Part shown: positions 4,412 to 37,151 of the stretch, in pieces
Layout of the letters: each line of letters begins with the position of its first letter
Numbering within the stretch: position 1 is the stretch's first letter
Translations under genes and position numbers: made by a program
Notes under the pieces: model-generated
The model's input: only the letters and a program-made list of their open reading frames with translations
Database searches by the model: none
Told to the model about the DNA's origin: nothing
Source of the DNA: a virus
Reading direction: 5' to 3' (one strand)
Virus record (IMG/VR): IMGVR_UViG_3300017763_000002
Coordinates: 1-64,000 of that record
Length of the DNA: 64,000 nucleotides

Positions 4412-4437
4412 CATTATTTTTTTAATCATATCAATCT

Positions 4438-5621: not shown

Positions 5622-5625
5622 GATG

Positions 5626-5841: not shown

Positions 5842-5847
5842 ATTATG

Positions 5848-11007: not shown

Positions 11008-11009
11008 AA

Positions 11010-12397: not shown

Positions 12398-12570
12398 TGC
12401 TTATTATAATAACTTTCGGGGCTCTGTCGTAGACTGTAAAAACGTTGTTTTACATACTTCAAACCCCCACAACTTACTTATTTTATTCTGCCTTTTATGC
12501 ATATAGTATAATAACATTTTTTTAACAAAACAGCTAATATAATTTTTTTTATTTTGCTATAATGCCCTTC

Positions 12571-12644
12571 AGGCGATTCCGGCGTCAGCCGATACTATTA
12601 TAATTATTTATAAATTAATATTATTTATTGAATTGATATCGCCT
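12571..12644. repeat. Inverted repeat in 12.40-12.66 kb gap
   Basis: The 268-bp gap 12398-12665 contains no convincing gene. AGGCGAT (12571-12577) and ATCGCCT (12638-12644) are perfect inverted 7-mers about 60 nt apart, with an AT-rich interior, and further GCC/GGC pairs outside. It could be a convergent-terminator or RNA structure; no T-run fits a standard terminator. Confidence 0.4.
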
Positions 12645-12665
12645 CAAACTGATAGGCATATAATT

Positions 12666-13394: not shown

Positions 13395-13396
13395 TA

Positions 13397-13409
13397 CTAT
13401 AATATACAC
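13397..13409 (-). promoter_or_regulatory. Type II promoter for the 13394 gene
   Basis: On the minus strand GTGTATATTATAG, with 15 nt from the G to the ATG. Confidence 0.65.
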
Positions 13410-13423
13410 ATGCAAAATTAATA

Positions 13424-13436
13424 GTGTAAAATATAT
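13424..13436 (+). promoter_or_regulatory. Type II promoter for the 13440 gene
   Basis: GTGTAAAATATAT, 16 nt from the G to the ATG. It is divergent with the motif at 13397-13409. Confidence 0.65.
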
Positions 13437-13439
13437 TAT

Positions 13440-14495: not shown

Positions 14496-14496
14496 A

Positions 14497-17063: not shown

Positions 17064-17070
17064 AGCTCCT

Positions 17071-17089
17071 GTGTAAATCTATATTACAC
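17071..17089. promoter_or_regulatory. Palindromic divergent type II promoter
   Basis: GTGTAA at 17071 and TTACAC ending at 17089 face opposite directions, giving a type II motif on each strand for the 17063 and 17095 genes. Confidence 0.6.
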
Positions 17090-17094
17090 AAGAC

Positions 17095-18189: not shown

Positions 18190-18726
18190 ATGAAAATTTT
18201 AGGCAAAAACGGTTATGTTAGAGATGTTACGGACGCTGATGTTTTAGAGCTTTCGGCTCATCCACGAGACGTAGACCAAAGGCATTCTCAGTATTTAGGC
18301 TGGGAAAATTACCACGAGCACATAATTAATACTTTTCATTCTTCTAAGCGGAGTTTAGCCTTTTGTTTCAGCGATGGAACTTTAGTCGGATGTACAGGAG
18401 TGCACGACTCCCCACACGCCCGAGTCGGAGGCGTCTGGGCATTAGGAACTAAAAACTCTTTAGATATTCTAGACTTCAAAGGCAGCTTAAAAAAAAGTTA
18501 TGGCAATTTAAAGTCTATTTTAGGTGTTTATGAATTTATGAAAATATCCAGGGAGCATTTCGATTGGCTTTTCGGAGAAGATTTTGATGTTTTGTTAAAC
18601 ATTGTTGAAAAAAATAACAAATTAGGACAGAGATGGTTGCGTTTTTTGGGAGCAGAAATCACGCCTAAAGACGACCGCTTTTGTCAAGTAACATTTTATA
18701 AAAATGGGCGGCGGAGTACATATTGA
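18190..18726 (+). CDS. GNAT-like / DUF2833-type phage protein
   Basis: 178 aa resembling the DUF2833 and GNAT-like proteins of podovirus virions. The core has LVGCTGVHDSPHARVGGVWA (strand-turn-strand around an acyl-CoA-like site), then a LNIVEKNNKLGQRWLRFLGA motif that parallels the N...RWLRWLGF end of this family. Possible acetyltransferase or virion protein. The last 23 nt overlap the giant gene, so the two are co-expressed and probably functionally linked. Confidence 0.75.
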   Translation: MKILGKNGYVRDVTDADVLELSAHPRDVDQRHSQYLGWENYHEHIINTFHSSKRSLAFCFSDGTLVGCTGVHDSPHARVGGVWALGTKNSLDILDFKGSLKKSYGNLKSILGVYEFMKISREHFDWLFGEDFDVLLNIVEKNNKLGQRWLRFLGAEITPKDDRFCQVTFYKNGRRSTY

Positions 18727-21700
18727 TTTTAATCTAGATTTCTTATCTGCAGATCCTACATCCAACTCTGCCAAAAGAACATTATTCGGACACTCCAGGG
18801 CTGCCATGCCAGGAGCAATGCCGACATGGTACGGCCGTTTCAGGCAGTATGCGGTTTACGAAGTTGGGCATTTAGTTTTGCACGCGGATGACGCTGATGA
18901 TTTCTTGGCAAGAAATGAGAGGTCAGCGCCTTCTTTATCTAATTTATATGTATGCGTAAATACTAATAGAGCCGGAGATTTTCCGCCTCCTTCCTCAACC
19001 TCATGGAGATCATTGGCGGATTTGTCTAATGATTATGATACCGGAGCAAGATCAGTTCCTAGGGCTACTTTTTTAACTTCAGGAAGAATGTCTGATAATG
19101 AAATATGTTTAAATTTATTTGAATTTATTGATTTAAATTTTGTAATTTGTAATTCTACTTTCACCCCACTAAATAGCGGTTTAGACCCTATTGCTATTAA
19201 GCCTAGGGTTGGAGCCTCATTTGGAGGAGGGGTTACAAGGACTAGAAGAGAAGTGGATTTAAATTCATCGCAAGGCGGAAACTTAGAAAGGTTTACCGTG
19301 GATTATCCAGAGTATGCTATTTCGGGCACAGGGCAGATTCCCTTGCCTAGTAGAAAATTTGGTTTTGCGGCAACTTCTTTAAATGCACAAATGGGTTCAG
19401 AAATTGAAGCTCTTAATCCAACGAATGACCCGCTAGATCCAGATTTGACTGCAAATTCTTTTGACTCTTCTGTGGTTTATGAAGTTGGAAGCGTAGTGAA
19501 TTATTTTCCAATAGCTGATAATCAAAGCTTAGAGTCTGAAGTTTTTGATACGACTAACCACCCAAAGCTATCTGTGTGTATTAAAAATCTAGAATCTCCA
19601 GCAAGAGATCAAAACGGAACTTATGATACAAGCAAGCTCCCCTGGAATCAAAATTCGACTTACTGGAGGTCATATACATCTGCGGCGAACCGACCAAATT
19701 CATCATTAAGTTCTGTTTATGAATATTTAGTTAATAAAAAAAATAGATTTCCTGCATTTACAGTTAATCCTGACCCGGTAAAAAATCTATCTAACCAAAC
19801 AGTTATCAGGAATAAATCTAGAATTCGTATGAATGATTTTGGTGGCACCTCAAATATTTATGGGCACTTTTTTGTGCATTGGGCTACCGCATTACAACCT
19901 TATAGCAGGAGTAAATGCAGAACCTGGTACTCTGGGGCGTCATCGCAATCTGGCCCACATCAAGATGGGCAATATGATATTTTTATATATACTAAAAATT
20001 TGAAAAAAGACCACGGCGGCCAACCCAGGTTAGCTGTAACTTTCGGAAAAACTACTGCTATTAAATTTTTATCTGTTAGCGGAGTCTCTACATTTTCTAC
20101 AGGCACTATAAGTTCAAATACAATAAATAAATATTTAAAAGATGATAATTTTAACTCGTCAATGATTCAAGAGGTTAGTTCTGAGGCAGATATAATGCAT
20201 TATCAATATAGTAATCTCGTTCCCTCTTACTACATGGGAAGAGGTTACGTTCATGCAAGAAGAAGGGGCGGAGTTCATCCTGGCTCTAGCAAGGGCGATC
20301 GAAATTTAGGTAAATTTATATTGTTTATCGAAGATTTATTGTCTCGCCAAAGAATTGAAATGGTAACTCCTCAAATATTTTCTAATGGGAATCCCAGGCT
20401 TGGTCTTCATGGCCACTCAATTCCAACTCAAGACTGGGGAGAAACTGGGGCCACAAGAAATTATCAATATACAAAAGAAATTGTAGATGGCGGGGGTTTA
20501 ACAGATTTATTATCCACAAAAACAACTGCCACGACAGCGGCACAACCAATGCATTACTTAATAGTAGGCAACGCTTTAAGCGCAACAGACCAAGTAGCGA
20601 ATCAAGGAATAAGCTTTCAAAATCGTTTCGTAGATAGGGCTTTCAGGCCAATTATGCTGAGGACTGATGCGTTAAGCGAAGAAAGATTTTTTCATATACT
20701 TGGCTTGATGCAAACTGGATTCGTCGGGGTTGACGCCGAACTTTTTAAAAATATTACGGACCAAAATATCGACAACTTATCTGGTATAGAGAACAAAATA
20801 TGGATGGATCTTGGGGAGACGTTCCATGGCTCCCAAGGGAACCCTTTATTTAAATCAATCGCCTCTAAAATAGGCTCTTTTAAAGAAAACACACTTACGA
20901 ATCTAAACGATTTAGCTAGCTGGAGTTCATCTTCACAGTACTCTCCGCAGCAAATCACTAAAATTACCCATTCAGATTATTGGACTGCAGGAGGTGACCA
21001 GGGGAGTGCTAATTTTGTCGGACCTTGGTATTATGATGTGCAATATAATTCTGGGAGCGTTGTTTATTTGTGGCAAGACGGACAAAAAACTTATTATACC
21101 GCAGCAGCGAGTTCTAAGTCTGTTTCTCCAAAAGAATTTTTTACTTTTTACAGGGCGTCAGTGGCAAACTCAAATAAAACTCCTATCTACAATTCCAGTA
21201 TCTGGAAAAGAGTGTCAATACCTAAGGGTAATATCGGTTTCCTTAAAGGTTTTGTTTCGACTATAAACCCTTATACTTCATTGCAAGTTTTAGCTAATTC
21301 TAACCTATGGCCTCCAAGCGGAAGGCGCGCATCTAAAATTGGATTTGGCTGGAAGAGGACTTTATCTGAAGAGGGAATATTAAATCAAATCACAGAAAGC
21401 AATCAAGAGTCATATTTATCAAGCTGGACTGAAGGCGCAGAATACCAAGCGGGAGATATTATTACCGTGCAATCTGGTCCAATCGTCGCCCTTGCTCCAG
21501 ACGGAGAATACTATACTTACGAACAGTGGGTGTCTCGTTTTAATTTAAGCTCCCAAGAAGAAGAGGAAGTTTCTTTGCTGTTTTCAGAAGCAGAGGCAGT
21601 TAACCCGCTTTATGCTTTTAAGTGCTTAAAAAATACGTCTGAGGCGGATGTCAACGACCCTAAATCTTATGTAGGATTAATTCCTGGTTTTATTCCAAAT

Positions 21701-24700
21701 GAGACTTCGTCTGAAGTTTATTACTTACTGTCAAACCTAGACTCCGAGCAAGATTCAAACGATGTTATTTCAGAAAACATTGTATCTCAAACAATGTGGA
21801 AAGATATTTCAGCAGCTGAATGGAATAACGGTTCAATAACAACCAGTAAACTGGCGCACTATGGCCTGCTCCCTACGGGTCAATTTAATAAAAGAGACGT
21901 TTTCGGCGCAGGAACATATGCTTATGACCTTTCTTTTGAACCTTATTACAAAGTTGGTGATGCAGTTGTAATGAGGCAATCTGGCGTTGATGTATATAGG
22001 CTTAAAATCAAAGCATTTCACTTGATTGATTTTTCTTTAATTCCTGCCAGCTATACTGATGGAGGTAGTCTAGAATCTGCTAGCAGGATAAAACCAGATT
22101 ATTATTATTCTTCAAACATAAATTTAACAGGATCTTCGGTGCAAAACTATAGTTCTACCACCAGCTTCCACGGGCTAATTAGATCTCAGTGGTGGCAGCC
22201 TGTCGCGAAAAGAACAGGGGCTTTAGAAAGGGGATACCCCGATATATACGGAAACACAGGCTCTTACTTCGTGGTTCCAAAAAGCTTTGATTTCCTTCAT
22301 CTAGAAGATGGAATTGCCGAAGTGGCTCAACAAGCCACAGTCGACTCTACTATTAAAGTATACTTTGATGAGGTTAAAACTTTCGACTTGAGGGGTACGC
22401 AATACTACTGGACAAATGAAGTTAAAAATATTAGCTCAAATATGATTAATGCTTTGCCAAGTTATGGAAACGAAACGGAATTAGAGCCAAATTTAGTCGC
22501 AGAGCTTGAGCACCCTTATATTGATTTTGATGTTTTTGGGGCAAGTTGGGATGACGGCGGAACGACATCTCCGAATTTACTACAAACATCCACAACTGGG
22601 CATGAAGCTGTAGAGTATTTTAAAAGCTGGCTATATTCAAGTTTTGACGTTCAGCTAGCCAGAGACTTTGGAGAGCCTAAAGGTAGCAGCGTGAACCTTG
22701 ACGCTATATTGTCAAGTAAGTTTGAATTTGTAAAATACTACAGTTTTTATAATCCCACAGTTACTTTAAAGTATCAAATATGCGACGCATCTAATAATCC
22801 TATTGGTAGCGAAATTGATTATGTTGAAGGGAGTGAAATAGAAATCGAAAAGGGGCAGAGGATAAAATTAATCCCAAAATTAATTAAAGATGATAATAGT
22901 GAAATTAGTACTTTTTCATTGATGTGCAATTCTTTTGCAAAAAATAATACTATTGGACTTTTTCTAAGAACCCCTTTGGATAGCAATTATAAAGAAGTAG
23001 ATTTTTCTTATACTCATGTATCATCTTCTGTATCCGAGCCGCCTATTGATTCTGATGGAATAAGGGTTCCATATTATACGAACAAAGAAATTACTAGTGG
23101 GCAATTGGCTTTTCCCGCGCAAACCGGAGGCGCATATAGCGTTACTGCAGACCAAGCTAAAACCTATGCGAATGGAAATATTGTATCTTATGGGGCAAAA
23201 ACTTATGAATTTTATGTAGATGATGCTGATTGGCAATTTGACGCAGACATTGAAAATAATCCTGAAATAGCTCCAGGCAGATGGCACAGAAGATCCTGGA
23301 AAAATCCAGTGACATTGACCTACGGGGGAATTGCTCCTGAAAATACTCACTATAGAAGTTCTGGAGAATTTTTCCGCACGACAGAACAAGGCGGGGTGCG
23401 GGCTTCGGCGGAAACAATAACCCCCACATTTTCCAGTTCAGCTTTCACCCTAACTACCAACTTGCAAAATCTACTATTCGATTCTGCTATTGCATTTGGA
23501 CCTTATGGTCAAAATCTTTTACTATCTACCATAGATCAAGCTTATGAGGAAGTGGCCATAAAAGAAACTCTATTGAGTAGGTTTTATAAGTCTCAAACAT
23601 TGCACGATCAATACGGAGAAACTGGATCTGCAGAAGAAAAACTATTATCATCCGCACCAAAATGGAGGAACGTTTCAGGGCCAGAAGGCTCAATCACTGA
23701 GAACGAGATTCTTGGAATTGAGTGGTCTGCAAATAATGTTTACGCTCAGGGAGAAATTGTTGAATTTGGAAATAAATTATATATTTCTACCAAAATTAAT
23801 TCGTCTGTAGACCCTGCTTCTGAGCCGTCAGAGTGGAAAATTGTTCAACCTTGGCACCAAGACAACCATTACATTCCCGGGGATTTTGTTTATATATTTG
23901 AAGATGAGCTTGTTTTATCTTCTGATTCTAACGGAAACCCTCTTCCAACCTTAAGAGAAAACATTCAATTAAAAGGCCCTAGCTCAGGAGGAAATAATTC
24001 CTTTATTTATCCTTCTTGGTCAAAACACAAATACTATCATATAGGAGAAAAAGTTATTAAAAATTCAGCAATATACATATGTATCGCTGCAGGTATTGCG
24101 TCAACAGAATTAGAATTTAATCAAACTTTTCAATTAACTGCGGAAGCGGTTCCTGCACATCCTAATTATGGAGGTAAATATGCTTTCTTCGTTTGTGAAA
24201 AAAATATTTCTCCTGGGAGCGGAGGGCATGACCCGAGAAGATTGAACGTTCTAACTTCCATGCACGGAGATGATGACATTTTAATTAGGGCTAGCGATAA
24301 TTTATCTAAAGCTTTTAATCAAAATGACGATATATATTTAGATTTTACATATCAGAACGGGGATGCATTTAAGGTTAGCACAAAAAATATTAGCCTGTCT
24401 TTGTTCGGTTATAATTCTGCATCAAATATAGACGAAAGAGATTTTTTAACTCAAATTAATGCAAAACCAGAAATTGCAGAAGCGCATGCATCAACCTTAT
24501 CTGCGTGGTCTACTGGGTCTGAGGGGGAGGGTTTTATTTCAACTGGAACATTGAATATAAAAATAAAAGTTACTAATCCAAATCCATCAAGCGTAATTGA
24601 TAGAACTTTTACTCCCGCTACGCCACCTTCAGATTCTACCTGTCAAACATTTACTTCATATTCTAACTTGTTATGTAGTAATAAATTTTTCATTAATAAT

Positions 24701-27700
24701 GGAAAATTATATGCTTCTGGTTTAGATAGTGGTGAGTTAGGTTTTATTGGATTAATGGATAATTCAGAATTTCAAAATACGGTGTTAGGTAATAGTACCG
24801 AAGGTTCTCAGCACAGATCGTATAATAAATTTTGGGCGCTGGAAGGAATAGGAACTGATACTGAAAATCATAGGGTAAAGATTTTTGAAAATGGTAGTGG
24901 CGGCATTAGTAGTTCAGACCAAAATGAAACCATATCTAATGATCAATCAACTTTTGTAAATTCTGAAGGAGGAAACACAGTATTTATTTGCGGAGGAAAA
25001 CTTTATGGAATGGGTCACAATCAGGGTTATTCTTTAGGGTTGTGCGCTACTTCATCAAGCACATTTGGATTAGGTAACCGATCTCAAGGCTACAGAAAAG
25101 ACGGTAATGATGATCTTGATAAACAGAGAAAGAGCGAAGCTGTGCAAGACTTTTTTGAAGCATCCTTGCATTTCGATTCAGATTATTATATTAATCTACA
25201 AGTCAATCCTGGCAGCACAATCTATAGCCTTGGAGACAGTCAGCAACAATTTAGTACAGATATGAGCACAGATCTTGTTGCGTGGAACCATTTCACTAAA
25301 AAAGGTTTTTATCAATCAATTAATGACGAATGGTCTTTAATAGGATATACTAAAAAAGATGCGAACTTCTGGGGTAGTACGTCAAATCAAATATCCCAAC
25401 TTACAAGCGATTGGTATTTTGTTGAACCTTATAATTCTAGCTCTTGGATATCTCATCCAGGATCAATGGAAGCGACAGCTTTATTTACTCCTAATTATAT
25501 GCCTTCTGATTTTTGGCAGACAGGAGGAATACACGCATACAATTTAGACCAAAAGACACCTGCAGGTAGTTGGGGCGTAATGAATCTAGCAAACCTTGAC
25601 GCTTACTTTGAGTCGAGTATTTTTGAAAGGATGGATAAGCTTATTGAAGACGAAGATTATTTTAATGCCTGGAAGAACAATATGGCTCAATATAAATATG
25701 TTGAAAATTCAAGCGTTTATCATGGAACAGTTGATACATCTTCTGGATCTCAACCTAGGCTGGGCTGGAACGGTATACTCATAAATGAAAATTCTTTAAA
25801 ACGTTTTTATGACATGGGCGACTTCGTGACTTCATCAACATGGATGAGCCAAATGAGGATCGGAAGAACAGTTGCTATTTCTGGTGAAATTGATGGATCT
25901 GATTCGGGCTTTAAGCTGGCTACGTCTCATGAAAATGGAGTTGCTAGCCTAAATCCAGTATCAAGCCCAGATTATAGTTACTATAATAATTCCCAAACTT
26001 ATGGTTATGACGGGAGCATGGGAAAATGGGCTAAGGTATTCACTCATAATAAATCACTTTATATTAACGGCAAACCCTTTTGGGATCCAGTGCTGGGAGA
26101 ATCAGAGCACATCGTGATTGATACTATAACTGGAGAATATAATGCAGGAAATTCTGGTTCCGATAACCGAGCGACTCCCCTAGGTATTTATAAATTAAAT
26201 TCTGAAAAAAATATTTCGTTCGGGAATTACCCTAGAAATACCAGGCTAGAATCAGATTTACAAATAATTATTCCAAACAATTTAGGAATTAGTAATTTAC
26301 CTGGAGGAAAAAGAAATATTGATGGTCTTGGTAACGCAAGCAAGGAAATTATTCCTGCGAGAACATATGTTCCGTACGCGACTAAATTAACGGACGAAGA
26401 TGTAACTTGGGCTGCGACAAACAAGTATTCTACATTTTACATTAACCCCCAAGGGCAAGTAAAAGCTTTAGGTTCAGTCTGCGCTTGTCCTTTTTATAAA
26501 ATACAAGGATTAAGCGTTCCGCAATCTTTTGAGTTAACTCCTGGCGGAGACTTCGGCGGTTTGATGGGCGTAGAGGGTAACTATTCGTCTCCAGCTGTAT
26601 CTATAAATTCATTTGATGCTTTTGGCTCACTTACAATTACTGCAGATGACGCAAGCCCTGTGTTTAAAAATGATAATTGGGCTTTAATTCTTTCTGCGGC
26701 GGGAACTACCTCTAGTAGTAATTTACAAACTCATGCAGCTGATGTATTTAGTGGAGATGACATTTATTTCGGATCAGATTCTAGCGAATATATATTTAGA
26801 GATCAAATATCCCAGGAAATTATTATTGAATCTCAAATTACTGCGTCTTTATATGGTCAAAATTTGCTAAAAGTTATGTATGATGATAGCAGCTATAAAG
26901 TTGCAGCCAATAGTTGGATGATAAGATTTACAGAGAAAGGGGCGGGATTAAATGGCAGTGATATAGTTTCAGACTTGAGATGGTACGCAACTAGTTACAA
27001 TCATTCTATTTTAGTTAGAGCTGTTTATTTATTAGTATTAAGGAGAGAGGCTGATTCTCTTGGACTCAGTCATTTTTCTGGACAAAACCACTATGGAGTT
27101 AATATGACTCTTTATCAGCTGATTGGAGCATTAATGTTAAGCGAAGAATTTATAAGTAATGATGCTGCTAGTTTAACTAAACGATATGTAATAGATGCTA
27201 ACCCAGAATCTCCGCAGATTTCAAACGATCCCAGGGATTGTTTTCCGGCAATGAAAAAAATGATGAAGATATGGAATCATTATGGAAATACTTCGTTTCA
27301 ATATTGGGATGGAGATTCAAACATGAGCACTTCTCACATGCTGCGGATTTCTAGTGAATACATAGGAGCTATCGTAATTAATAACTGCGAACGAGAAGAA
27401 GTCAACGGTATATATCGCCCGTCAAAAGGATGGGATGATAATGATTTTAATAGTACTGCAGATAGATCTTGGTACGAGCACGCTCATAATCAAGGAGGTA
27501 GGGATGATGATAAAGGTATATACGTAAGCGATAAAAACACTCAATACGGAAAAATCTTAATTTATTGGGATGCTAATCTTGATATTTGGAGAATGCAGTA
27601 CTCTGATTTTTGGCTGCAGGATACTACAGGAGATGGACTCAGGGCTCAAAGATTAATTGGAATGCAAAAACATTATTACAACGCCAATGGAGATTTGGTT

Positions 27701-30700
27701 AGATCCATTAAGAGTAATATCGGAACCCCGCAAGATGTTGATGAATGGTACATCGGCACAGGAGAATGGCTTACATCTACAGAGCCTGAAACTGTTGATG
27801 TATTTAGTCAACCTAATGATTTCATTGATTCAACCAGGGTAATCTATGCGCCACCAGAAAACTCATTTATTAATAATCTCCATGGGCCTACCAGAATGTC
27901 TATTGTGCCTAAGCTACTAAATAAAACTCCAGGATCTGCGGATCCAGATGCAATTTTCGACAACATGAATTACGCTCAACAATTCAATAATTTTGGATCT
28001 CAAATTCCTGATCGAAACGGCGGGCCTAGCGCTTTCGTTAACGATGATTTATACCAACTGGACCAACAGATTTATCGCTTAGTAAAAAGGTTTACTGATG
28101 ATGGCCGAGCATTTTCTCCAGTTCATTTTGCAGATAGATTTGCATCAAGGACTAGGCCTGGGGGGTTAGAAGCTCTAAGGCCTGATAATAACGAAGTTTA
28201 TCCACGCATCGGTGCGGGGCTTGATTGGAATTTGTGGCCAGAAGATGTAGATTTTGTAAACGAATTTTCTCTTAATGAACAAGCTATAGGTGATCTACTG
28301 CACTTTCAAGGCGGAGCGCTAAAAGAAACTTTAATATATACTTCTTTAGATACAAAAGCCGACGCAAATATTACTAACGATGGATTAGATCTATGGCGAT
28401 TAAATTTAACACAAAATTCCAATATAACTTTTAAATCTAAAATATTAAAAAATTCTGGAAATTTTAGTGATCCTTCAAAAGTAAAATTTGGAATGTATAT
28501 ATTTAAGGACATGGGTTATGGTTACGTTAATGTTGCTGATTTTCAGATGCAGTGGCCCAATAATGGGCTGCCTAGTGGAGGTTATGGCGAATGGGCTCCT
28601 GTGAACACATATATAACACCTGATAGGTATTCTACTTTTATTGGCGGTGGAGAAACCGCAGCGCTAGCTGACTATTCAGATTTATTTACCGATCAATACT
28701 CTCTAGTAAAAGCTTTTTTTGCAAGATATTATAGGCCTGATAATTATGTATATTCCGACGCAGATCCTAATTACAATGCAACTGGGACCAGTGGGTCACT
28801 ATGGACGATTAATGGAGATATAATAACAAATCGCGGCTTGAATTGGACTCAGATGATCGACGTCCGAACTACTCTGAGAAACGCAGATGATCATTTTTTC
28901 GATAGGGTTATGAGTAGAAGTTTTGAAAACAGACCTATATTTCCAGGAGTGTCAGCTAACAGTTTTAACATGGGAACGCAAAATCCTTCTGGTGGATCGT
29001 ACGTAAGTCTTGATGCAAATAGTTTTGTAGATAACGAGCTAGTTTTAGATGTTAGCATTAACAACGCAGCCGCTGGAGGATATTATGTTTTACTTGTAGC
29101 TGAACATGCTTTTGATGCACCTGTACAAGATTTGCAATTAATTCAATCACAATACAATATTAATACAACTGCTGTGGCTACTTCAGGAACTTCAGAGCCA
29201 ATGTTTGTTAGCGAAGCAACAACCGAACATATCAACGGACAAGATGCTGAAACTAATGAACCTATAACTAATGGAGATACCCAGGCATTCACTAAAGATC
29301 CTTTGAAATATATAGCGAGAAATTCTTGGAGTTATAACGATTATAGTGCCTTTGTTAGTATGCTGGACGTTTACGATTGGCACGCAGACTTAACAGATTG
29401 GCAGTACTATTTTGATACTCAAGAAGCAGGCCTAGAGCAAGCTTTGAGAGATCGTCCCAGCAGGTTAAATATGAACCAAGCTAATCTTGGCCTGGCGCAT
29501 TGGAATAGTACTCTTAGTCTCGAGGACCGAAAAAAAAGATCAGAGCACATAAGGGGCTTGTTTGAGAAAAGGTTTAGCGCTAAAGCTACTTACTTTAGAG
29601 GTTTTGAGTCGATGAATCATAATGCAGATTGGGTTTACGATGAAATATTTGGATGGTCTACAAAAGCAATAGGAACTCATTCTCCTGCTAATAATGGCGT
29701 TTCTAACATTTATACAAGCTCTGCTGGATATTATTTTAGTAGTAGATATAATAATTGGTTTGAATTATCTAGTGCAGATAAAACAAAAAGAGATAATGGA
29801 GAGGCATTTGCTGTTAAATTTCTTAATCATGATTTTAATTTTAATTTATTTATTGAAGGGCAATCTGAATTTAATTTAGTATGGCCAGAGTCAAATTCTG
29901 CGACCTTTACTTATTTTGGTGCAAACGGACAAATGAACACTACTACAGGATTACGAAAGCCAGTAAGTAATACATATTCTCAATTAGATCAATATTCATA
30001 CAATACAGGTGATGTTGCAAAAATTGAATTAGCAGAAGGTAATGATCTCTTTAGGACTTTATATTTTGTGTCATTAAAAGATAATAACACTTCTTCATTA
30101 GGTTTCCTGGACAGTTTAGTTCAAGACGAAATCAAGGAGATGAATATTCCCGCGAGAAAAGGATTGTGCCAGAGATATGCTGTAGAGACTCATACGCTGT
30201 CTAGCGACTCCAGCTTGTCTGGGCCAATAACTATTTACAATCCAGCAGATTACAGCAACGACAAAGCTGTAAGGGTGGATATGGGTGAGTCTCACGCAAT
30301 AATTCTCACAGAGTCAGGAAAAGCGTACGGGGTTGGAGATAATTCCCAAAAACAAATAGACAAAATTTTTGAAAGATCAGATCAATTTAGCGGCGTCAAC
30401 CAAGACTCAGCTTTTGGTCCCAGTGATTATGATAATTGCTTATATCTCGTAGCAAATAAATCTAATCCAATTAGCCCTTATTTATCAAGAAGTGATTGGG
30501 ATGCAATCGAAAAGCCTGCGTTTCCTCTGGAGCGTTGGAAATACGGTCAGTCTTATAGTAGTGGAGAGAAAGTTTTCATTAAAAACGAAACATATAGTGC
30601 TATTTCAGCAGATGATTATGAAGTTTCAGAATCAAAGAAATCAAATGTTTTATTAAATGGCTTTTCTGGGTCTCCTTATTTAATCGACCATGAAAGATTT

Positions 30701-33700
30701 TTTGATTCTGGTGAATCTAGAATAAGAAATGAAACTATCTTTGCAAATACAATAGGAGAGCTATTTAAAAGAAATTGGAAAAATGGAAGAAATGCAGTGG
30801 GCGGCGGGGGCAACAGGGTGGCGGTTTATTGCGGGAAAATTGACGGAATAACTCACGACACATCTTTAAAAAATCATTACAGAGAATCGAGGGGAGACGG
30901 TTTCTTTTTAACTCAAGACTGTTACCTAAAGCCTCATGAAATTAAAAGCTTTTTTAAACAAGGCTCTGTGGTAAATAATTTATTTATAAAAAATATTAAA
31001 TGCTCTGGATATGGTTCGTTATTCCTTGACGCCTCAAATAATATGTATGGAATTGGAAACAATGAAATATCAAAATCAAATCAATCTCAATATACTGGAG
31101 GAGAAAGTATTGGGACTGTTTTTGGTTTAAATTCAGACTTTGATTACGGCCCTGAGTTTATTAAAGAGTCAGTATCTTTTATGCATAAGGCTGGAGATTT
31201 AGTTTCGTATATTTCACATGGATATTCTTACAAAGCTGGAGGTCAAAATTTATATCCCTACTTCGAAAATTATCAAAACGCGGGAGCAGAAGCGATCATG
31301 CTAGATTCTAGTGGGAATCCTATTTCGGCAAAAATGGTTTTCCTAGAAGGCCCTAGGTTTTGGGATAATAGGGACTGGTTTTTAAAAAGAAGTTTGTCTC
31401 AAAAAATAAATAATAATTTTTATTTAAAGGATGAACACTATCGGCCCGTGGACCTAGAAAGATGCACCCCGCACACAAGAAAAGGGCAGTTTACATCTAA
31501 TGTATTTGGATTACCTGTAATTAATGATTTTATACCTGAATGGAAAGACGAAGGGCAGTACCACGAGCTTATAAAAGGGGGTCAAATTATGGGCTCAGAT
31601 AAAAATTATTTACAAAATGACCGAGAAGATGATCCAACTTGGTTTAAATCTGTAGAAACTTACGGAGCTTTGTCTAGCGCTTTTGAATCCAAGCAACCAA
31701 GCCTTGTGACTTATCAAGGCAAAATATATCAATGTATACAAAGACACGGTCACGTATTTGGAGACGAAGCAAGCGACAAAATTCCATACGATAAAAACTT
31801 AAGCAAAAAATTTACTGTTGATTCTGAAGGAGTTTATACCGCAAGAGGCAGAGTCGGGGCGGGAATAATCCCTGGAGAATCGGGATCTGAACTTTATTGG
31901 CAGGAGGTATCTGATTTATCAAATAAAAATATGATTCAATTTTTAACTCAAAGATTAAAAATATTTAACTTAAGTTCAATGATTGTTGTTTCAGAAGATA
32001 ACAGTTTATACATCAAGGGGTTTAATTTTGGTTTATCTAAAGAGGCTGACGGAACTTGTTCTGGTATAAAAGATAACTCTGAATTAATTGCTTTTGAAAG
32101 AGGCGCGGATGTAGGCTCTAATTCTCCGGAGCAAAGACTGATTATAGAAAAATATTTTAAGGATAAGTATTTATATACAGATTTAACTCCGTTCAATACG
32201 TCTATAGATACTAGGCCCACCGTGCCAAAATGGAAAAGTTTTATAAATTTGATGTCTGAAAAAATTGAAGGATGGACGCATCCGAATCCAGTAAATGAAA
32301 CAGGACAATCTACTTTGTCAGGGGGAAGATCTTTGTCCCCTTTTGACTTTTTAGGCAATAATAGAAAAAGAGGTCAGTATTTTGTGGGGATTGATCCCAG
32401 CGAATATATCGATGTAGAAAATTTATCTTTAGAATTAAATCCCACATCTCCAATGCTATCCTGGGGAGAAACAAATTCAGCGCTGAATAATTTATTGTCA
32501 AATAATGTATTCGGGTTTCTCGAAAGTTGGACAGAGATTTTTAGAGCGATGGAAGATTGGAAACAAGGCGTTTCCGCCCACTATAGACAACCAAGACCGT
32601 TTATGTTTGACGGCTCTTTCTCTGAGTGTTTGAATCTTTCCTGGACAACTGTTGACCCATTTGCAAACTCTTTATTTTTAGCATACAGAGGGGCTTATCA
32701 GCCACCTGTAGAAATATCAGGAACCGAGACTGATTGGCTTTATCATCATTCTATAGTATTACCAAGTTCAATTGATTTGTCGACCTTATCAATTAATGTT
32801 AATACCAGGAATAGTATAACAAGTTTGGAACCAAATCAAAGAAACGGCGGATCTATAATGGAAATAAACACAGATTTATCTGACGCGCGTTACAACAGTT
32901 TTTATCCAGAACTTTTAAGATCTCCAAACCCAACATTATTTAATTGGTGGGACTTAATCAGAGACGCTGGGTCAAAAATAAAATACACAGCTTCATTTAA
33001 TACGGACGAAGCAGTAGAAAATCCATCTGCAGAATTTTCATTCATGGAGTTATTTTTCTCTCAACATAGCCCTAGCTCATTTCCCGTAAGTGATTCGGCC
33101 GAATTCTCCGCAAAACCACATATATCTGAGTCGGACAACCCTTGGAACGATAGAAACTCTAGTTCGTTTTACAATCCCTGGGGAAGCTGTAATTTTGTGA
33201 ACAATATATCAAATCAAACCCAGTGGCACATACAAGACGACGCGCCTACTCTTCAATCTTTTTCTGTATGGAATGCCAGGACAAATAGCATTCATACTCC
33301 GACTCTTAGGGCAGATGCAGATTCTCTTCAGAGCATTCTTAATTACAACTACAATCAAAGTTTATACGTTGATTTCTACAGTACTTACCTTAATGCGGCA
33401 AATAATAATAGCACTGATCCTGAGCTACCTAAATTCGTAGAGCTTACCGAAGCTTTCAAGCAGTTACAGTTTTTTGATACCGCGTCGCATTACGCTTTCT
33501 TTGTTAATTCTTATTTGCTAGATCCAGCGTCTTTACCTTTTGGAGGCACAATACCTAAATTTGGATATCAGAATAACAGCGGGTCAATAACATCCGCAGC
33601 ATCGTATAATACTGGAGAAAGAGTGTTCCATAAGGGATTCGCTTTTACGTCTTTAATAGATTCAAATAACTCAACGCCATCTTTTGGTGACGTATATTGC

Positions 33701-36391
33701 GCAAATCCTATTAGTGACAATAATTGGAAATACGAAGAGCCCATGGATTTACACAGATTTAGATCGCAAATTGGCATTGCACACGGAATTTCTATATCTA
33801 GATTAATCATGAACAAAAGAAACGATGAAGACCCTTACTTTCGGGCCGGATTTATATCGCAGCAAACAATAGGTCATTCTCAGATTGATTTTAGCTTTGT
33901 ATCTAAAAACCCTTCAATGACAAATTTTCATAATTTTAAAAATTTAAATTTATTAAGAAGGGCAGATTGGGAGCAAACAGATGAAAACAATAAACTTCCG
34001 TACGAGCATTTAGAAAACAAAACTCATCCGCTTGCAGAAGGAGAAGACGTAAATGCAGATCCTTTATTATCTCAATCTGCAAATAAAAAAGGTTTTAATT
34101 TACCCGACTGGTTTAGGGTAAGGTCCGAGCATATTAGTGATCAAGTAGCGGTTTTACAGGCGGCAATCGACGCAGCCGAAGCCAGCCAAGGAGGAAGTTG
34201 GGCAGGCAACTTTTACTTGAAACTATGGGTTAATACTGTAATAGAAAAGTTCATGAAGGCCTACGGATATAAAGACCAACGCTTAATTAGTAGACCCGAT
34301 CTTTCATTATCTGGAGTCGGAGAAAGCATTAATTGGGATTCAAGCCAAGCAACATCTGATGATCATTTTGATTTTGTAACAGACGAGGTTGGGCCATATC
34401 CTGTTTTTGATTTTACTCCAGATTTAGCCAACGGGGAGCTCGGGGGCTTTGCTATACCCGATGGGTTTGGAGACATTCCTTTCATTATTGACGGCAATCT
34501 TCGTCGAGGAATTGCGTCCACAGAAGACAACTTAGCTAATAGCGTTAGCTCTGTGGTTCCAACCTCAAATGGCGTAGATTATGGAACCTTGGGTCAAGCT
34601 TATAACGCTGCCTTTAAGGGTTATGACGAGGCTAACAATTTTTATGAAACCTCGGTGCCAAATACAGTTATAAAAAATGTATACTATAAGTTTGCTAAGC
34701 CTGCGTTTCCAGCTTTATATGGAAACGTAACAGACTACATGGAAGCAATATCTGAAATGCATAAATACGGATTTTCAAACTTTACAAGCGGATCAGAATT
34801 AACAAATACAATATGGGGAAGGGAAATTAATCATGATTTTTATTGTTCGTCAAAAATAAATTCTCAATTTTATGCTTCAAATATACCAAACTATTTAGAA
34901 GACAAAACTCCTTCAGGAGGCGCCTCGAGATTTGACTGTGATGACAATTATATTACTGAGAGCGAAGATGATTATGATGCTGCTTTTGAGGCTGGAAAGT
35001 GTTATTTTAGTATTAACGCTAATTATAGTGGATTTTCTTTAGTAAGTGATGCTGGTGGCAATGATAATTCAATATATATTAGAAATAGAAAAGAGTTTTT
35101 TGAGAGCACATCTTCGGCTTCTTCATACAATTCGAACGGAGAACCCGAAAGAAGTACTCACTTAGAAGTTCCTTACAAATACTTTAATTGGTTAGGAATA
35201 ATTTATGAAATCGGCGGCGTAAAACAGCAAAAAATAGTATTCCACATTGATGACATGAATTCTTATTCATTTGAAGCTGGATACCCATATTTAATCTTTA
35301 ATCAAATTTATTTTTGCAAAAAGGATTTTGACGCAGGATCGAGCACGACGCCAATAAACGAAAGGGTGCCCCGCCCTGGAGAGAGTAATGATGCATTTGA
35401 ATTTGTCGTCTCACTTCAACCCACTTCGCCGACGGTTCCTTCTCAGAAATTGTATGATAAGAATTTAAATGAAATTAACGACAAATGGTATTACTTTGAA
35501 GACTTCCCTCATGCAGTAAAAAACTTAAGGCATTTAAGATTTGAGGTTAGGAAAATTTACCCAACTTCTACAAATATTCATGGTGAAGATCAATTATTCC
35601 CTGATGTTAATACTCCAGATGCCAACGGCAATCCTATATCTATTCTTCACCAAGGTTTTTTAAATCATGGATCAAACGAAACTTTGGGTAATCACGCATA
35701 TGTTTTAAGCGGTGGGTTAGCGGGGCTTGTATTTAGCGACTATTTTGACGCTTTTAAAGAAGGTTCTTCTTTTTATGGAAACAGAGCTTATCGTAGTAAA
35801 TTTAAATTAGGAGATGAAAATACTTCTGTTCATACATCTGCTATACCTTTTTCAATACCGCTACAAGACGAAGATGCTTACTTTGTTTCAGAGCAACAAG
35901 CGAAAGATGCCGCAGAAAAATATGTAATTTATTTAGCAAAAGAAAGAGAAGGTTTAGATTATGTTTGGTTTGACCTGCGAAGTGAGCGCTGGGTAGTCGG
36001 AAGAAATTGGATTCATGAAAAAATAGAAACAAATTTTGACTCTGAATCTGAGGCAAGATCCCGAGCACAGGTCCTAGGTTATTCAGATCAAAGTTTAATA
36101 TGCTGGGAAAAAGAATATTTTCCGTGCGTATACAAGGAGGCTGGTGGGGCAATAAATAAAGATCTAGATAAATTTATAGAACATGATGTAATATACATTG
36201 GCGGAAAGGAGCACCATCAGTGCTTAGCGAGAATTCATGGCGTTACTGAAAAATGGAAACAAGAGATTGAATCCAACAATCCAGGTTTTATAGAAATTAA
36301 TAATGGACAATTATTTTTCGCTTTGTTAGGAACTCTTACTCCTGTGAGTGATTGGACTATATTGACAAATATTACTTTCGATATAAGTTAG
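18704..36391 (+). CDS. Giant modular surface protein, 5895 aa
   Basis: One uninterrupted 17.7-kb frame covering over a quarter of the window. Three kinds of module can be seen. (1) At least 13 segments with the pattern Y..G..V.Y.g..Y....W, like ChtBD3/CBM5-12 domains; examples near residues 48, 253, 778, 910, 1080, 1485, 1676, 1719, 1775, 3947, 4160, 4965 and 5825. (2) RCC1-like blades with NGKLYASG, GGKLYGMGHN, SGKAYGVGDN and NNMYGIGNN near 1992, 2089, 2574, 3864, 4104 and 4425. (3) A DUF4214-like segment near 2766-2822 (AVYLLVLRREADSLGLSHF). The rest is Asn/Ser/Tyr-rich and probably beta-structured. No signal peptide or transmembrane segment. Most likely a virion fibre or adhesin. A ribosome-binding site is not evident; translation may be coupled to the GNAT-like gene. 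Confidence 0.8.
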   Translation: MGGGVHIDFNLDFLSADPTSNSAKRTLFGHSRAAMPGAMPTWYGRFRQYAVYEVGHLVLHADDADDFLARNERSAPSLSNLYVCVNTNRAGDFPPPSSTSWRSLADLSNDYDTGARSVPRATFLTSGRMSDNEICLNLFEFIDLNFVICNSTFTPLNSGLDPIAIKPRVGASFGGGVTRTRREVDLNSSQGGNLERFTVDYPEYAISGTGQIPLPSRKFGFAATSLNAQMGSEIEALNPTNDPLDPDLTANSFDSSVVYEVGSVVNYFPIADNQSLESEVFDTTNHPKLSVCIKNLESPARDQNGTYDTSKLPWNQNSTYWRSYTSAANRPNSSLSSVYEYLVNKKNRFPAFTVNPDPVKNLSNQTVIRNKSRIRMNDFGGTSNIYGHFFVHWATALQPYSRSKCRTWYSGASSQSGPHQDGQYDIFIYTKNLKKDHGGQPRLAVTFGKTTAIKFLSVSGVSTFSTGTISSNTINKYLKDDNFNSSMIQEVSSEADIMHYQYSNLVPSYYMGRGYVHARRRGGVHPGSSKGDRNLGKFILFIEDLLSRQRIEMVTPQIFSNGNPRLGLHGHSIPTQDWGETGATRNYQYTKEIVDGGGLTDLLSTKTTATTAAQPMHYLIVGNALSATDQVANQGISFQNRFVDRAFRPIMLRTDALSEERFFHILGLMQTGFVGVDAELFKNITDQNIDNLSGIENKIWMDLGETFHGSQGNPLFKSIASKIGSFKENTLTNLNDLASWSSSSQYSPQQITKITHSDYWTAGGDQGSANFVGPWYYDVQYNSGSVVYLWQDGQKTYYTAAASSKSVSPKEFFTFYRASVANSNKTPIYNSSIWKRVSIPKGNIGFLKGFVSTINPYTSLQVLANSNLWPPSGRRASKIGFGWKRTLSEEGILNQITESNQESYLSSWTEGAEYQAGDIITVQSGPIVALAPDGEYYTYEQWVSRFNLSSQEEEEVSLLFSEAEAVNPLYAFKCLKNTSEADVNDPKSYVGLIPGFIPNETSSEVYYLLSNLDSEQDSNDVISENIVSQTMWKDISAAEWNNGSITTSKLAHYGLLPTGQFNKRDVFGAGTYAYDLSFEPYYKVGDAVVMRQSGVDVYRLKIKAFHLIDFSLIPASYTDGGSLESASRIKPDYYYSSNINLTGSSVQNYSSTTSFHGLIRSQWWQPVAKRTGALERGYPDIYGNTGSYFVVPKSFDFLHLEDGIAEVAQQATVDSTIKVYFDEVKTFDLRGTQYYWTNEVKNISSNMINALPSYGNETELEPNLVAELEHPYIDFDVFGASWDDGGTTSPNLLQTSTTGHEAVEYFKSWLYSSFDVQLARDFGEPKGSSVNLDAILSSKFEFVKYYSFYNPTVTLKYQICDASNNPIGSEIDYVEGSEIEIEKGQRIKLIPKLIKDDNSEISTFSLMCNSFAKNNTIGLFLRTPLDSNYKEVDFSYTHVSSSVSEPPIDSDGIRVPYYTNKEITSGQLAFPAQTGGAYSVTADQAKTYANGNIVSYGAKTYEFYVDDADWQFDADIENNPEIAPGRWHRRSWKNPVTLTYGGIAPENTHYRSSGEFFRTTEQGGVRASAETITPTFSSSAFTLTTNLQNLLFDSAIAFGPYGQNLLLSTIDQAYEEVAIKETLLSRFYKSQTLHDQYGETGSAEEKLLSSAPKWRNVSGPEGSITENEILGIEWSANNVYAQGEIVEFGNKLYISTKINSSVDPASEPSEWKIVQPWHQDNHYIPGDFVYIFEDELVLSSDSNGNPLPTLRENIQLKGPSSGGNNSFIYPSWSKHKYYHIGEKVIKNSAIYICIAAGIASTELEFNQTFQLTAEAVPAHPNYGGKYAFFVCEKNISPGSGGHDPRRLNVLTSMHGDDDILIRASDNLSKAFNQNDDIYLDFTYQNGDAFKVSTKNISLSLFGYNSASNIDERDFLTQINAKPEIAEAHASTLSAWSTGSEGEGFISTGTLNIKIKVTNPNPSSVIDRTFTPATPPSDSTCQTFTSYSNLLCSNKFFINNGKLYASGLDSGELGFIGLMDNSEFQNTVLGNSTEGSQHRSYNKFWALEGIGTDTENHRVKIFENGSGGISSSDQNETISNDQSTFVNSEGGNTVFICGGKLYGMGHNQGYSLGLCATSSSTFGLGNRSQGYRKDGNDDLDKQRKSEAVQDFFEASLHFDSDYYINLQVNPGSTIYSLGDSQQQFSTDMSTDLVAWNHFTKKGFYQSINDEWSLIGYTKKDANFWGSTSNQISQLTSDWYFVEPYNSSSWISHPGSMEATALFTPNYMPSDFWQTGGIHAYNLDQKTPAGSWGVMNLANLDAYFESSIFERMDKLIEDEDYFNAWKNNMAQYKYVENSSVYHGTVDTSSGSQPRLGWNGILINENSLKRFYDMGDFVTSSTWMSQMRIGRTVAISGEIDGSDSGFKLATSHENGVASLNPVSSPDYSYYNNSQTYGYDGSMGKWAKVFTHNKSLYINGKPFWDPVLGESEHIVIDTITGEYNAGNSGSDNRATPLGIYKLNSEKNISFGNYPRNTRLESDLQIIIPNNLGISNLPGGKRNIDGLGNASKEIIPARTYVPYATKLTDEDVTWAATNKYSTFYINPQGQVKALGSVCACPFYKIQGLSVPQSFELTPGGDFGGLMGVEGNYSSPAVSINSFDAFGSLTITADDASPVFKNDNWALILSAAGTTSSSNLQTHAADVFSGDDIYFGSDSSEYIFRDQISQEIIIESQITASLYGQNLLKVMYDDSSYKVAANSWMIRFTEKGAGLNGSDIVSDLRWYATSYNHSILVRAVYLLVLRREADSLGLSHFSGQNHYGVNMTLYQLIGALMLSEEFISNDAASLTKRYVIDANPESPQISNDPRDCFPAMKKMMKIWNHYGNTSFQYWDGDSNMSTSHMLRISSEYIGAIVINNCEREEVNGIYRPSKGWDDNDFNSTADRSWYEHAHNQGGRDDDKGIYVSDKNTQYGKILIYWDANLDIWRMQYSDFWLQDTTGDGLRAQRLIGMQKHYYNANGDLVRSIKSNIGTPQDVDEWYIGTGEWLTSTEPETVDVFSQPNDFIDSTRVIYAPPENSFINNLHGPTRMSIVPKLLNKTPGSADPDAIFDNMNYAQQFNNFGSQIPDRNGGPSAFVNDDLYQLDQQIYRLVKRFTDDGRAFSPVHFADRFASRTRPGGLEALRPDNNEVYPRIGAGLDWNLWPEDVDFVNEFSLNEQAIGDLLHFQGGALKETLIYTSLDTKADANITNDGLDLWRLNLTQNSNITFKSKILKNSGNFSDPSKVKFGMYIFKDMGYGYVNVADFQMQWPNNGLPSGGYGEWAPVNTYITPDRYSTFIGGGETAALADYSDLFTDQYSLVKAFFARYYRPDNYVYSDADPNYNATGTSGSLWTINGDIITNRGLNWTQMIDVRTTLRNADDHFFDRVMSRSFENRPIFPGVSANSFNMGTQNPSGGSYVSLDANSFVDNELVLDVSINNAAAGGYYVLLVAEHAFDAPVQDLQLIQSQYNINTTAVATSGTSEPMFVSEATTEHINGQDAETNEPITNGDTQAFTKDPLKYIARNSWSYNDYSAFVSMLDVYDWHADLTDWQYYFDTQEAGLEQALRDRPSRLNMNQANLGLAHWNSTLSLEDRKKRSEHIRGLFEKRFSAKATYFRGFESMNHNADWVYDEIFGWSTKAIGTHSPANNGVSNIYTSSAGYYFSSRYNNWFELSSADKTKRDNGEAFAVKFLNHDFNFNLFIEGQSEFNLVWPESNSATFTYFGANGQMNTTTGLRKPVSNTYSQLDQYSYNTGDVAKIELAEGNDLFRTLYFVSLKDNNTSSLGFLDSLVQDEIKEMNIPARKGLCQRYAVETHTLSSDSSLSGPITIYNPADYSNDKAVRVDMGESHAIILTESGKAYGVGDNSQKQIDKIFERSDQFSGVNQDSAFGPSDYDNCLYLVANKSNPISPYLSRSDWDAIEKPAFPLERWKYGQSYSSGEKVFIKNETYSAISADDYEVSESKKSNVLLNGFSGSPYLIDHERFFDSGESRIRNETIFANTIGELFKRNWKNGRNAVGGGGNRVAVYCGKIDGITHDTSLKNHYRESRGDGFFLTQDCYLKPHEIKSFFKQGSVVNNLFIKNIKCSGYGSLFLDASNNMYGIGNNEISKSNQSQYTGGESIGTVFGLNSDFDYGPEFIKESVSFMHKAGDLVSYISHGYSYKAGGQNLYPYFENYQNAGAEAIMLDSSGNPISAKMVFLEGPRFWDNRDWFLKRSLSQKINNNFYLKDEHYRPVDLERCTPHTRKGQFTSNVFGLPVINDFIPEWKDEGQYHELIKGGQIMGSDKNYLQNDREDDPTWFKSVETYGALSSAFESKQPSLVTYQGKIYQCIQRHGHVFGDEASDKIPYDKNLSKKFTVDSEGVYTARGRVGAGIIPGESGSELYWQEVSDLSNKNMIQFLTQRLKIFNLSSMIVVSEDNSLYIKGFNFGLSKEADGTCSGIKDNSELIAFERGADVGSNSPEQRLIIEKYFKDKYLYTDLTPFNTSIDTRPTVPKWKSFINLMSEKIEGWTHPNPVNETGQSTLSGGRSLSPFDFLGNNRKRGQYFVGIDPSEYIDVENLSLELNPTSPMLSWGETNSALNNLLSNNVFGFLESWTEIFRAMEDWKQGVSAHYRQPRPFMFDGSFSECLNLSWTTVDPFANSLFLAYRGAYQPPVEISGTETDWLYHHSIVLPSSIDLSTLSINVNTRNSITSLEPNQRNGGSIMEINTDLSDARYNSFYPELLRSPNPTLFNWWDLIRDAGSKIKYTASFNTDEAVENPSAEFSFMELFFSQHSPSSFPVSDSAEFSAKPHISESDNPWNDRNSSSFYNPWGSCNFVNNISNQTQWHIQDDAPTLQSFSVWNARTNSIHTPTLRADADSLQSILNYNYNQSLYVDFYSTYLNAANNNSTDPELPKFVELTEAFKQLQFFDTASHYAFFVNSYLLDPASLPFGGTIPKFGYQNNSGSITSAASYNTGERVFHKGFAFTSLIDSNNSTPSFGDVYCANPISDNNWKYEEPMDLHRFRSQIGIAHGISISRLIMNKRNDEDPYFRAGFISQQTIGHSQIDFSFVSKNPSMTNFHNFKNLNLLRRADWEQTDENNKLPYEHLENKTHPLAEGEDVNADPLLSQSANKKGFNLPDWFRVRSEHISDQVAVLQAAIDAAEASQGGSWAGNFYLKLWVNTVIEKFMKAYGYKDQRLISRPDLSLSGVGESINWDSSQATSDDHFDFVTDEVGPYPVFDFTPDLANGELGGFAIPDGFGDIPFIIDGNLRRGIASTEDNLANSVSSVVPTSNGVDYGTLGQAYNAAFKGYDEANNFYETSVPNTVIKNVYYKFAKPAFPALYGNVTDYMEAISEMHKYGFSNFTSGSELTNTIWGREINHDFYCSSKINSQFYASNIPNYLEDKTPSGGASRFDCDDNYITESEDDYDAAFEAGKCYFSINANYSGFSLVSDAGGNDNSIYIRNRKEFFESTSSASSYNSNGEPERSTHLEVPYKYFNWLGIIYEIGGVKQQKIVFHIDDMNSYSFEAGYPYLIFNQIYFCKKDFDAGSSTTPINERVPRPGESNDAFEFVVSLQPTSPTVPSQKLYDKNLNEINDKWYYFEDFPHAVKNLRHLRFEVRKIYPTSTNIHGEDQLFPDVNTPDANGNPISILHQGFLNHGSNETLGNHAYVLSGGLAGLVFSDYFDAFKEGSSFYGNRAYRSKFKLGDENTSVHTSAIPFSIPLQDEDAYFVSEQQAKDAAEKYVIYLAKEREGLDYVWFDLRSERWVVGRNWIHEKIETNFDSESEARSRAQVLGYSDQSLICWEKEYFPCVYKEAGGAINKDLDKFIEHDVIYIGGKEHHQCLARIHGVTEKWKQEIESNNPGFIEINNGQLFFALLGTLTPVSDWTILTNITFDIS

Positions 36392-36410: not shown

Positions 36411-37151
36411 ATGGATGATGTATTATATGGCGCAGTATGTAATAATGTTGTAGTTATAAAGTATTTGTCTGACGCAGGATTTATTACAAGAGGATTGTTT
36501 TCTAATAATAGAGCCTATATACCAGATAAATTTTTAATTTATAAACCTAACTTTTATTTTGAATGTTATGAATTTTTTAGAAATAAAAAAGTCAGAATTA
36601 AAGATCAGTCTAAGGTACTCTCAGCCTCTTTTGATTCTCCGCAAAATGTTCGCGCTGGGCAAATAATATATGGAGAATGCCAGCCAACAAAAAACTTTAT
36701 AGAAGAAAAAATTAAACAATTTCCAGAACTAAGACTTCCTTTTGAACGTGGAAACATTAAAAATATATCACCTCAGGCTAAAGCTAACGCCCTAGGGTTC
36801 TTTACGGGTTGCGAATTTAAAGAAAAAGATAGGAACTTGAATAAATTTATAGATGATTTAATATGTAGTGAAATTTTTACAAGAGTTCCAATGGAAGAAA
36901 TGTTTGTTGAATTTATATCTAAAGGAGATTCTCCTCAGTCTCAATGGAAAAAAATAATAGATTTATATATAGAGCTCTCTATACAGGAGATTAAGTCTGA
37001 TAAAAAAATGCGTCAATCAGAGAAAGAAAGTTTAGTCTCATCGGTTCGGAGCGCTCGAGACGTAAGAATAGAAAATATGTCTTCTTTGAGTTCTGCTACC
37101 TGGCCAAAGCAATTGATGCCCCGCCCTAATTGGTTTTCTTACGAGATTTAA
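36411..37151 (+). CDS. Unknown protein, 246 aa
   Basis: No family recognised. TATAAT-TAAGTT-ATG precedes it, the same -10 and spacing as at the 4170 gene, so it may have its own promoter. The protein begins MDDVLYGAVCNNVVVIKYLS and has mixed alpha/beta character with a charged helical C-terminal third (RQSEKESLVSSVRSARDVRI). It directly follows the giant gene and may be its chaperone or another virion part, but this is only position-based. It overlaps the convergent 37126 gene by 26 nt. Confidence 0.7.
   Translation: MDDVLYGAVCNNVVVIKYLSDAGFITRGLFSNNRAYIPDKFLIYKPNFYFECYEFFRNKKVRIKDQSKVLSASFDSPQNVRAGQIIYGECQPTKNFIEEKIKQFPELRLPFERGNIKNISPQAKANALGFFTGCEFKEKDRNLNKFIDDLICSEIFTRVPMEEMFVEFISKGDSPQSQWKKIIDLYIELSIQEIKSDKKMRQSEKESLVSSVRSARDVRIENMSSLSSATWPKQLMPRPNWFSYEI

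Follow-up and report, generated by a model that had tools for sequence, protein, structure and literature searches.

Very large structural proteins are a known kind of phage product, and in T7-like phages the gp13 gene directly precedes those for the ejection proteins gp14–16 and does not lie beside the fibre gene. gp13 is described in a review as required for infection, its location being unknown (PMC8811829), and a T7-like phage proteome study enumerates the structural proteins without it (PMC4517105). Single polypeptides of exceptional length are represented by the N4-like phage DEV, whose 3,398-aa virion RNA polymerase is reportedly carried in the virion and ejected (PMC10925440), and by the giant transcription proteins of crAss-like phages (PMC7886860). 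Repeats of RCC1 type are found in the jumbo coliphage phAPEC6, which encodes eleven copies of RCC1-like proteins of unknown function (PMC7247149).

The window, that is, the whole 64,000-nucleotide stretch of DNA analysed here, opens a virus record 204,906 bases long from an uncultured marine-type phage and covers its first 64 kb. It encodes a 5,895-aa protein (hereafter the giant) whose gene is the middle member of a conserved three-gene cassette, and which we regard, with slightly better than even confidence, as a virion-attached, extracellular surface-binding fibre with two dedicated assembly partners. The cassette and its surroundings are as follows (coordinates in the window):

10399–18150, no strand assigned: sugar/surface-modification island with methyltransferases, TylF, GT34, GT2, a sulfotransferase, a DXD glycosyltransferase and DUF2827 (Pfam)
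18190–18726, + strand: T7 gp13-type protein (PHROG 308), 178 aa, overlapping the start of the giant gene by 23 nt
18704–36391, + strand: giant gene, one open frame of 5,895 codons with an ATG start and a TAG stop
36411–37151, + strand: 246-aa cassette partner, with a predicted N-terminal WYL-like small β-barrel, then a helical C-terminal part
38107–39246: subtilase (Peptidase_S8, PHROG 3677) with a Glu-Pro repeat tail (tandem repeat 39013–39086), between PhoH and terminase
40147–40743: GAF-domain protein, 198 aa, with relatives in PHROGs of unknown function, conserved across the lineage
44523–46391: terminase

The giant has a computed mass of 660.0 kDa and pI of 4.94 and is read through 5,895 residues without an internal stop; as stop-free runs in 20 shuffled versions of the window never exceeded 170 codons, the frame cannot be due to chance. 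Codon usage is even along the length of the gene, each sixth of it lying near the late genes (cosine 0.88–0.93), and homologues occupy the same genomic place in IMG/VR contigs G001–G010, many of the relatives having been located via a related terminase. An assembly artefact, in which at least two genes were joined by misassembly or a missed stop, is opposed both by this uniform codon usage and by homologues that are likewise open and collinear, in other contigs as well as in a second subtype of giant; since several other contigs carry homologues at the same place, artificial fusion appears very unlikely, and the artefact explanation, scarcely credible, was rejected on the collinear homologues. 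A preliminary sequence-only reading had described a single unbroken gene whose product lacks a signal peptide and membrane spans, and this description stands: the frame is open here and in the collinear homologues, no recognisable signal peptide-like start was found at the N-terminus of the window's giant, and its hydropathy in 19-residue windows peaks at 1.32, with no window attaining the threshold of 1.6, which argues that it has no membrane span. Tandem Repeats Finder detected no internal tandem repeats within the gene, self-comparison of the giant gave weak matches only (67–90 residues), and Rfam and tRNA scans of the 64-kb window found nothing.

The same reading had placed the giant between a modification island and lysis genes. 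The island does lie upstream, with its sulfotransferase (14497–15309) beside the cassette, but no lysis gene adjoins the giant among the annotated genes, the WYL-like, PhoH and subtilase genes being found there instead; the 3′ order after the giant is 246-aa gene, PhoH, subtilase, GAF-domain protein, sigma factor, ERCC4-type nuclease and terminase. The giant shares its strand with the terminase/packaging block, a protein encoded at 48653 is likely the capsid protein by position (no database match), and further on a ClpA-type ATPase and a DnaE-like polymerase are encoded on the other strand. The tail module, at 105–153 kb and about 69 kb from the giant, encodes a 2,343-aa tape measure, a 1,632-aa J-type protein, a 1,296-aa minor-tail protein and two S74 fibres of 3,418 and 1,832 aa. 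In some relatives the subtilase sits elsewhere, next to the terminase in L062, for example. In G005, a 211-kb relative, a run of sulfotransferase-like frames (205773–210477, L107), with starts such as MISHKHKFIFVHINKTGGTSIE, lies upstream of a 6,589-aa giant and, like the sulfotransferase of the window, beside the cassette; these frames were recognised mostly by eye, with one weak match to PF00685. Terminase relatives occur in hundreds of IMG/VR contigs (80 kept, 70–93% identical), cultured phages reaching only about 25%, and the terminase lineage is, as far as these sequences go, widespread and without an isolate. Pieces of the lineage have been binned in bacterial MAGs of Halobacteriovorax, Flavobacteriaceae and Verrucomicrobiales; because these bins with related terminases conflict, they were set aside as a guide to the host and no host is claimed.

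The gp13-type genes of four cassettes (the window, G005, G009 and G010) match PHROG 308 with E values from 1.9e-12 (window) to 5.7e-10; the curated Pfam gp13 model PF11090 is not reached (below cut-off, E 0.019 and 0.0025), for which reason the upstream gene is named gp13-type and not gp13. Its best cultured matches, all weak (E 1e-3 to 5e-2), are in CRP-804, HTVC201P and TRX32-1, and sit at the gp13 place of Autographiviridae, between gp12 (tail tubular protein B) and gp14/ejection proteins. In four sequence types the order of gp13-type gene, giant and 246-aa gene is kept, and the first two meet with an overlap of 23 nt or 1 nt, or a gap of 1–2 nt. The downstream partner, of 246–270 aa, is present in all cassettes readable at that end. 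For the window's 246-aa protein, modelled by AlphaFold2 with pLDDT 84, the best viral matches in Foldseek are WYL proteins (probability 1.00, best E 3.6e-3, TM (target) up to 0.67), the best PDB match by probability is the BrxR WYL (0.69, E 0.5, non-significant), and a Pfam scan found no WYL domain; on the model, the N-terminus is probably a WYL-like barrel.

The giant might instead be a non-virion protein of the infected cell, such as a surface or matrix component with the host or competing phages as its target, under control of the WYL-like partner. WYL domains are known as ligand-binding regulators (attributed to Makarova 2014), and the fold match of the 246-aa protein, the sugar-modifying and sulfotransferase genes adjoining the cassette and the distance of the giant from the tail genes would all accord with such a role. 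We consider it quite unlikely, given that neither a signal sequence nor an export gene was seen, that a non-structural product of 660 kDa would be expensive to make, and that a virion-assembly gene of gp13 type is coupled to the giant.

The cassette is restricted to a single clade of the terminase tree, where it occurs in all seven readable members (together one side of a branch with SH-aLRT 95) and in none of the 29 phages outside, counted as those with a readable upstream region. The gp13-type and 246-aa genes were not found anywhere in eight outgroup records, mostly incomplete fragments and some of them long, the second search having been run without a positive control. In a relative without the giant cassette, a 1,222-aa open frame is found at the corresponding place (L066, 2698–6366). 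The three cassette genes diverge together, far faster than PhoH and terminase and out of step with core genes: between G001 and the window, identity is 89% for PhoH and 93% for terminase (89–94% when the MCP-position protein is included), against 61% for the 246-aa gene and 51% for the giant C-terminus. Relative to the window, PhoH is closer in G004/G009 than in G005 (81% versus 78%) and terminase closer in G004 (79% versus 76%), whereas the gp13-type protein (20–21% versus 56%), the giant N-terminus (25–26% versus 48%) and the WYL-like 246-aa protein (24% versus 43%) show the reverse. Discordance of this kind would be expected if the cassette is exchanged as a unit or if its genes are under strong joint selection. 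The idea of a common TATA-like promoter ahead of the cassette was dropped, the 11 sites not being enriched over the shuffle mean of 9.5; a sigma-70 scan returned promoter-like sites at background level, terminator-like sites were weakly above background (16 against 11.7, sd 3.1), and neither set is relied on here. As far as our searches show, the coupling of gp13-type and WYL-like genes to a giant is unreported in the literature searched.

Regions and modules of the giant are as follows:

18704–20863, + strand: N-terminal region, residues 1–720, common to both subtypes (alignments and hmmsearch)
23720–23839, + strand: CBM5/12 module, residues 1673–1712 (Pfam PF02839, E 1.2e-8, 35.3 bits against a cut-off of 26.2)
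24017–24139, + strand: second CBM5/12-like module, residues 1772–1812 (PF02839 matches two stretches in the piece; placed by motif scan)
24677–25039, + strand: two RCC1-type blades, residues 1992–2013 and 2090–2112 (own motif model, partly circular, both being seeds)
26984–27157, + strand: DUF4214-like segment, residues 2761–2818 (PF13946, E 4e-4, 20.8 bits, just under the cut-off of 23.2)
30287–32044, + strand: RCC1-type blades at residues 3862, 4103 and 4424, 240–320 residues apart (Pfam, PDB, motif model)
30536–30658, + strand: third CBM5/12-like motif, residues 3945–3985, below the Pfam threshold and at a homologous place in G008
35489–36388, + strand: C-terminal conserved region, residues about 5596–5895, kept within subtype A only

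The giants fall into two subtypes, type A comprising the window, G001, G008, G002 and G005-like members, and type B comprising G004/G010 and G009. The G005 giant, at 6,589 aa, is larger than that of the window, and type B giants have 3,846 aa (G004, G010) or 3,847 aa (G009); copies in G001, G002 and G008 are partial, and G003 holds the 3′ part of the G005 gene. G005, G006 and G007 carry one and the same 6,589-aa gene (0–1 mismatches over the 11.9–19 kb compared, the G007 copy running off the contig end), and G004 and G010 differ at 4 of 20,639 bases; records with such near-identical giants bear different IMG metagenome numbers and may not be independent assemblies. Aligned to the window's giant, the G005 frame matches over residues 3–1447 and in further collinear blocks, and G008 in one BLAST segment over residues 3581–5895 at 41% identity. 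G005 also has two further giant frames, of 3,810 aa (L131, 4068–15500) and 3,032 aa (L130, 2476–11574), and encodes at least three proteins above 3,000 aa.

The N-terminal ~700 residues are the only part common to types A and B and to all full-length members; with the window as reference, identity is 48% to G005 and 25–26% to G004/G009, and an N-terminal profile reaches the other subtype in hmmsearch at E about 1e-270, members of that subtype having helped to build it. The C-terminus is 51–52% identical in G001/G008 and 25–31% in G005/G002, with no match found in G004/G009. Within type A both ends and the RCC1 stretch (3601–4200) are better kept, and the middle is rich in insertions and deletions. 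Type B giants (G004/G009) have two hydrophobic, glycine-rich segments, predicted to be membrane segments, near residues 673–738, directly after the shared N-terminal block (located at L094, in the 3,846-aa frame, and at L128, and absent in type A); no hydrophobic segment was found in the 6,589-aa giant or that of the window. Searches by tblastn with both halves of the giant found no relatives in cultured phages, N-terminal Gordonia matches (E 1 or worse) being discarded as chance; N-terminal profile patterns found no relative among 84,980 bacterial and archaeal genomes, and PDB profile searches with the N- and C-termini returned chance matches only. Its small modules apart, nothing detectably related to the giant exists in cultured phages, PHROGs or PDB, and over nearly all its length it belongs to no PHROG and no Pfam family.

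Carbohydrate-binding-like modules had been suggested from the sequence, and the first CBM5/12 match, exceeding the Pfam gathering score, bears this out. RCC1 blades are recognised by Pfam PF13540 above cut-off near residues 3856–3884 and 4100, by a PDB profile search of region 3700–4450 (E 2.9e-5), and by a motif model that places them at residues 1992, 2090, 3862, 4103 and 4424, several of these being seeds (shuffled proteins score below 1.5 bits). Non-seed blades appear at matching places in the G005 and G008 giants; among the G005 blades homologous to those at 1992–2112, one (residue 1922) is non-seed. An RCC1 β-propeller has about seven contiguous repeats of 50–60 residues each, and the blades of the giant are isolated and form no such run; that the five make up one propeller with large insertions is a guess. 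Within its own genome, the proteins closest to the giant in composition are the minor-tail/tip protein, J and the S74 fibres.

The tightly coupled, clade-restricted cassette, CBM5/12 modules, RCC1 blades, fibre-like composition, terminase strand, gp13-type neighbour and fast divergence argue for a surface-binding fibre, from which we infer a virion location, glycan binding and roles for the partners. The N-terminal ~700 residues would anchor the giant on the particle; in the long, β-rich, indel-rich middle, the CBM5/12 modules and isolated RCC1 blades would touch host-surface glycans; and the gp13-type and WYL-like/helical proteins would serve its folding, loading or attachment, dedicated roles that would explain why the three genes are always inherited, and diverge, as a set. 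Like a receptor-binding protein, the giant has ligand-binding modules and diverges faster than its neighbours; a tail fibre would be expected in the tail module, where it does not lie and where J and two S74 fibres are already encoded. No homology was found to fibre families, the S74 chaperone or known tail/virion proteins (PHROGs and Pfam, Pfam also for the relatives), nor any paralogy with the fibres, J or tape measure of its own phage. The sequence-only proposal of a virion-attached, glycan-binding fibre is partly supported: the modules, composition, strand, gp13-type neighbour and divergence agree with it, fibre homology and a tail-module location being absent.

Also against a fibre are the gp13 neighbourhood of T7-like phages, which holds ejection proteins, the type B hydrophobic segments, the N-terminal AlphaFold model, which supports no anchor or trimer fold, and the WYL-like fold of the downstream partner, more familiar from ligand-sensing regulators than from fibre chaperones. 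The upstream gene, of the type that precedes gp14–16 in T7-like phages, and this hydrophobic pair, as a membrane-crossing protein might have, make ejection the chief rival: the giant would be an internal virion protein, packaged in the head with gp13-type help and delivered to the cell envelope during infection. A very large ejected protein has precedent in the 3,398-aa virion RNA polymerase reported for phage DEV (PMC10925440). Ejection nevertheless seems unlikely to us, as the window and 6,589-aa giants have no hydrophobic segment, the CBM and RCC1 modules and the composition suit exposed binding proteins better, and the phage owns a 2,343-aa tape measure, so that a long tail already crosses the envelope.

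The module evidence, the separation from the tail-tip operon and the terminase strand would also fit a decoration 'whisker' on the head or tail tube, with free glycans or particles and not the host receptor as its ligands, which would help to keep the phage in mucus-like or particle-rich zones. This we hold to be improbable: no capsid- or tube-binding domain was recognised, and the AlphaFold model of residues 1–720 (four-sequence alignment) is unusable at pLDDT 27.5.

If the giant is a surface-binding fibre, a single phage clade devotes as much as 20 kb, close to a tenth of the genome, to one exposed protein with two dedicated partners, a unit that sits outside the tail operon and diverges as such. 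The poorly understood T7 gp13 family would be linked to the loading of very large virion proteins, WYL-like proteins would gain a structural-assembly context, and a host-recognition device would have been wholly missed by current phage annotation, with no PHROG or Pfam family for nearly all its length. A bolder version, doubtful at present, is a self-contained 'giant fibre' module of a gp13-type loading factor, a particle-bound adhesin of 3.8–6.6 kaa with an interrupted RCC1 propeller and a WYL-like partner, exchanged as a unit outside the tail operon; if true, it would represent a novel route to assembling and exchanging a host-recognition organelle there. The cassette, three genes in one clade, is a clean evolutionary unit for testing such ideas.

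Compared with known systems, the S74/J siphophage fibres of the same genome (3,418, 1,832 and 1,632 aa) are, like the giant, very long, β-rich and low in lysine, and the 3,418-aa S74 fibre also bears a CBM5/12 module; unlike them, the giant has no S74 chaperone, J domains or sequence match to them, lies outside the tail module and is coupled to gp13-type and WYL-like genes. With the T7 gp13–gp16 block of Autographiviridae the locus shares a PHROG 308 gene with gp13-position matches upstream of the giant, but here one protein of 3.8–6.6 kaa replaces gp14–16, the tail gene set is of the long non-contractile type, and Pfam gp13 is not reached. The giants of DEV and crAss-like phages are likewise single, very large multidomain polypeptides; these are polymerase-related, whereas no polymerase was detected in the giant by Pfam, PHROGs or PDB profiles (N-terminal, RCC1 and C-terminal parts). 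phAPEC6 shares RCC1-type repeats in phage proteins with the giant, and in contrast to its compact propellers the giant's blades are single, standing 100 to about 1,750 residues apart.
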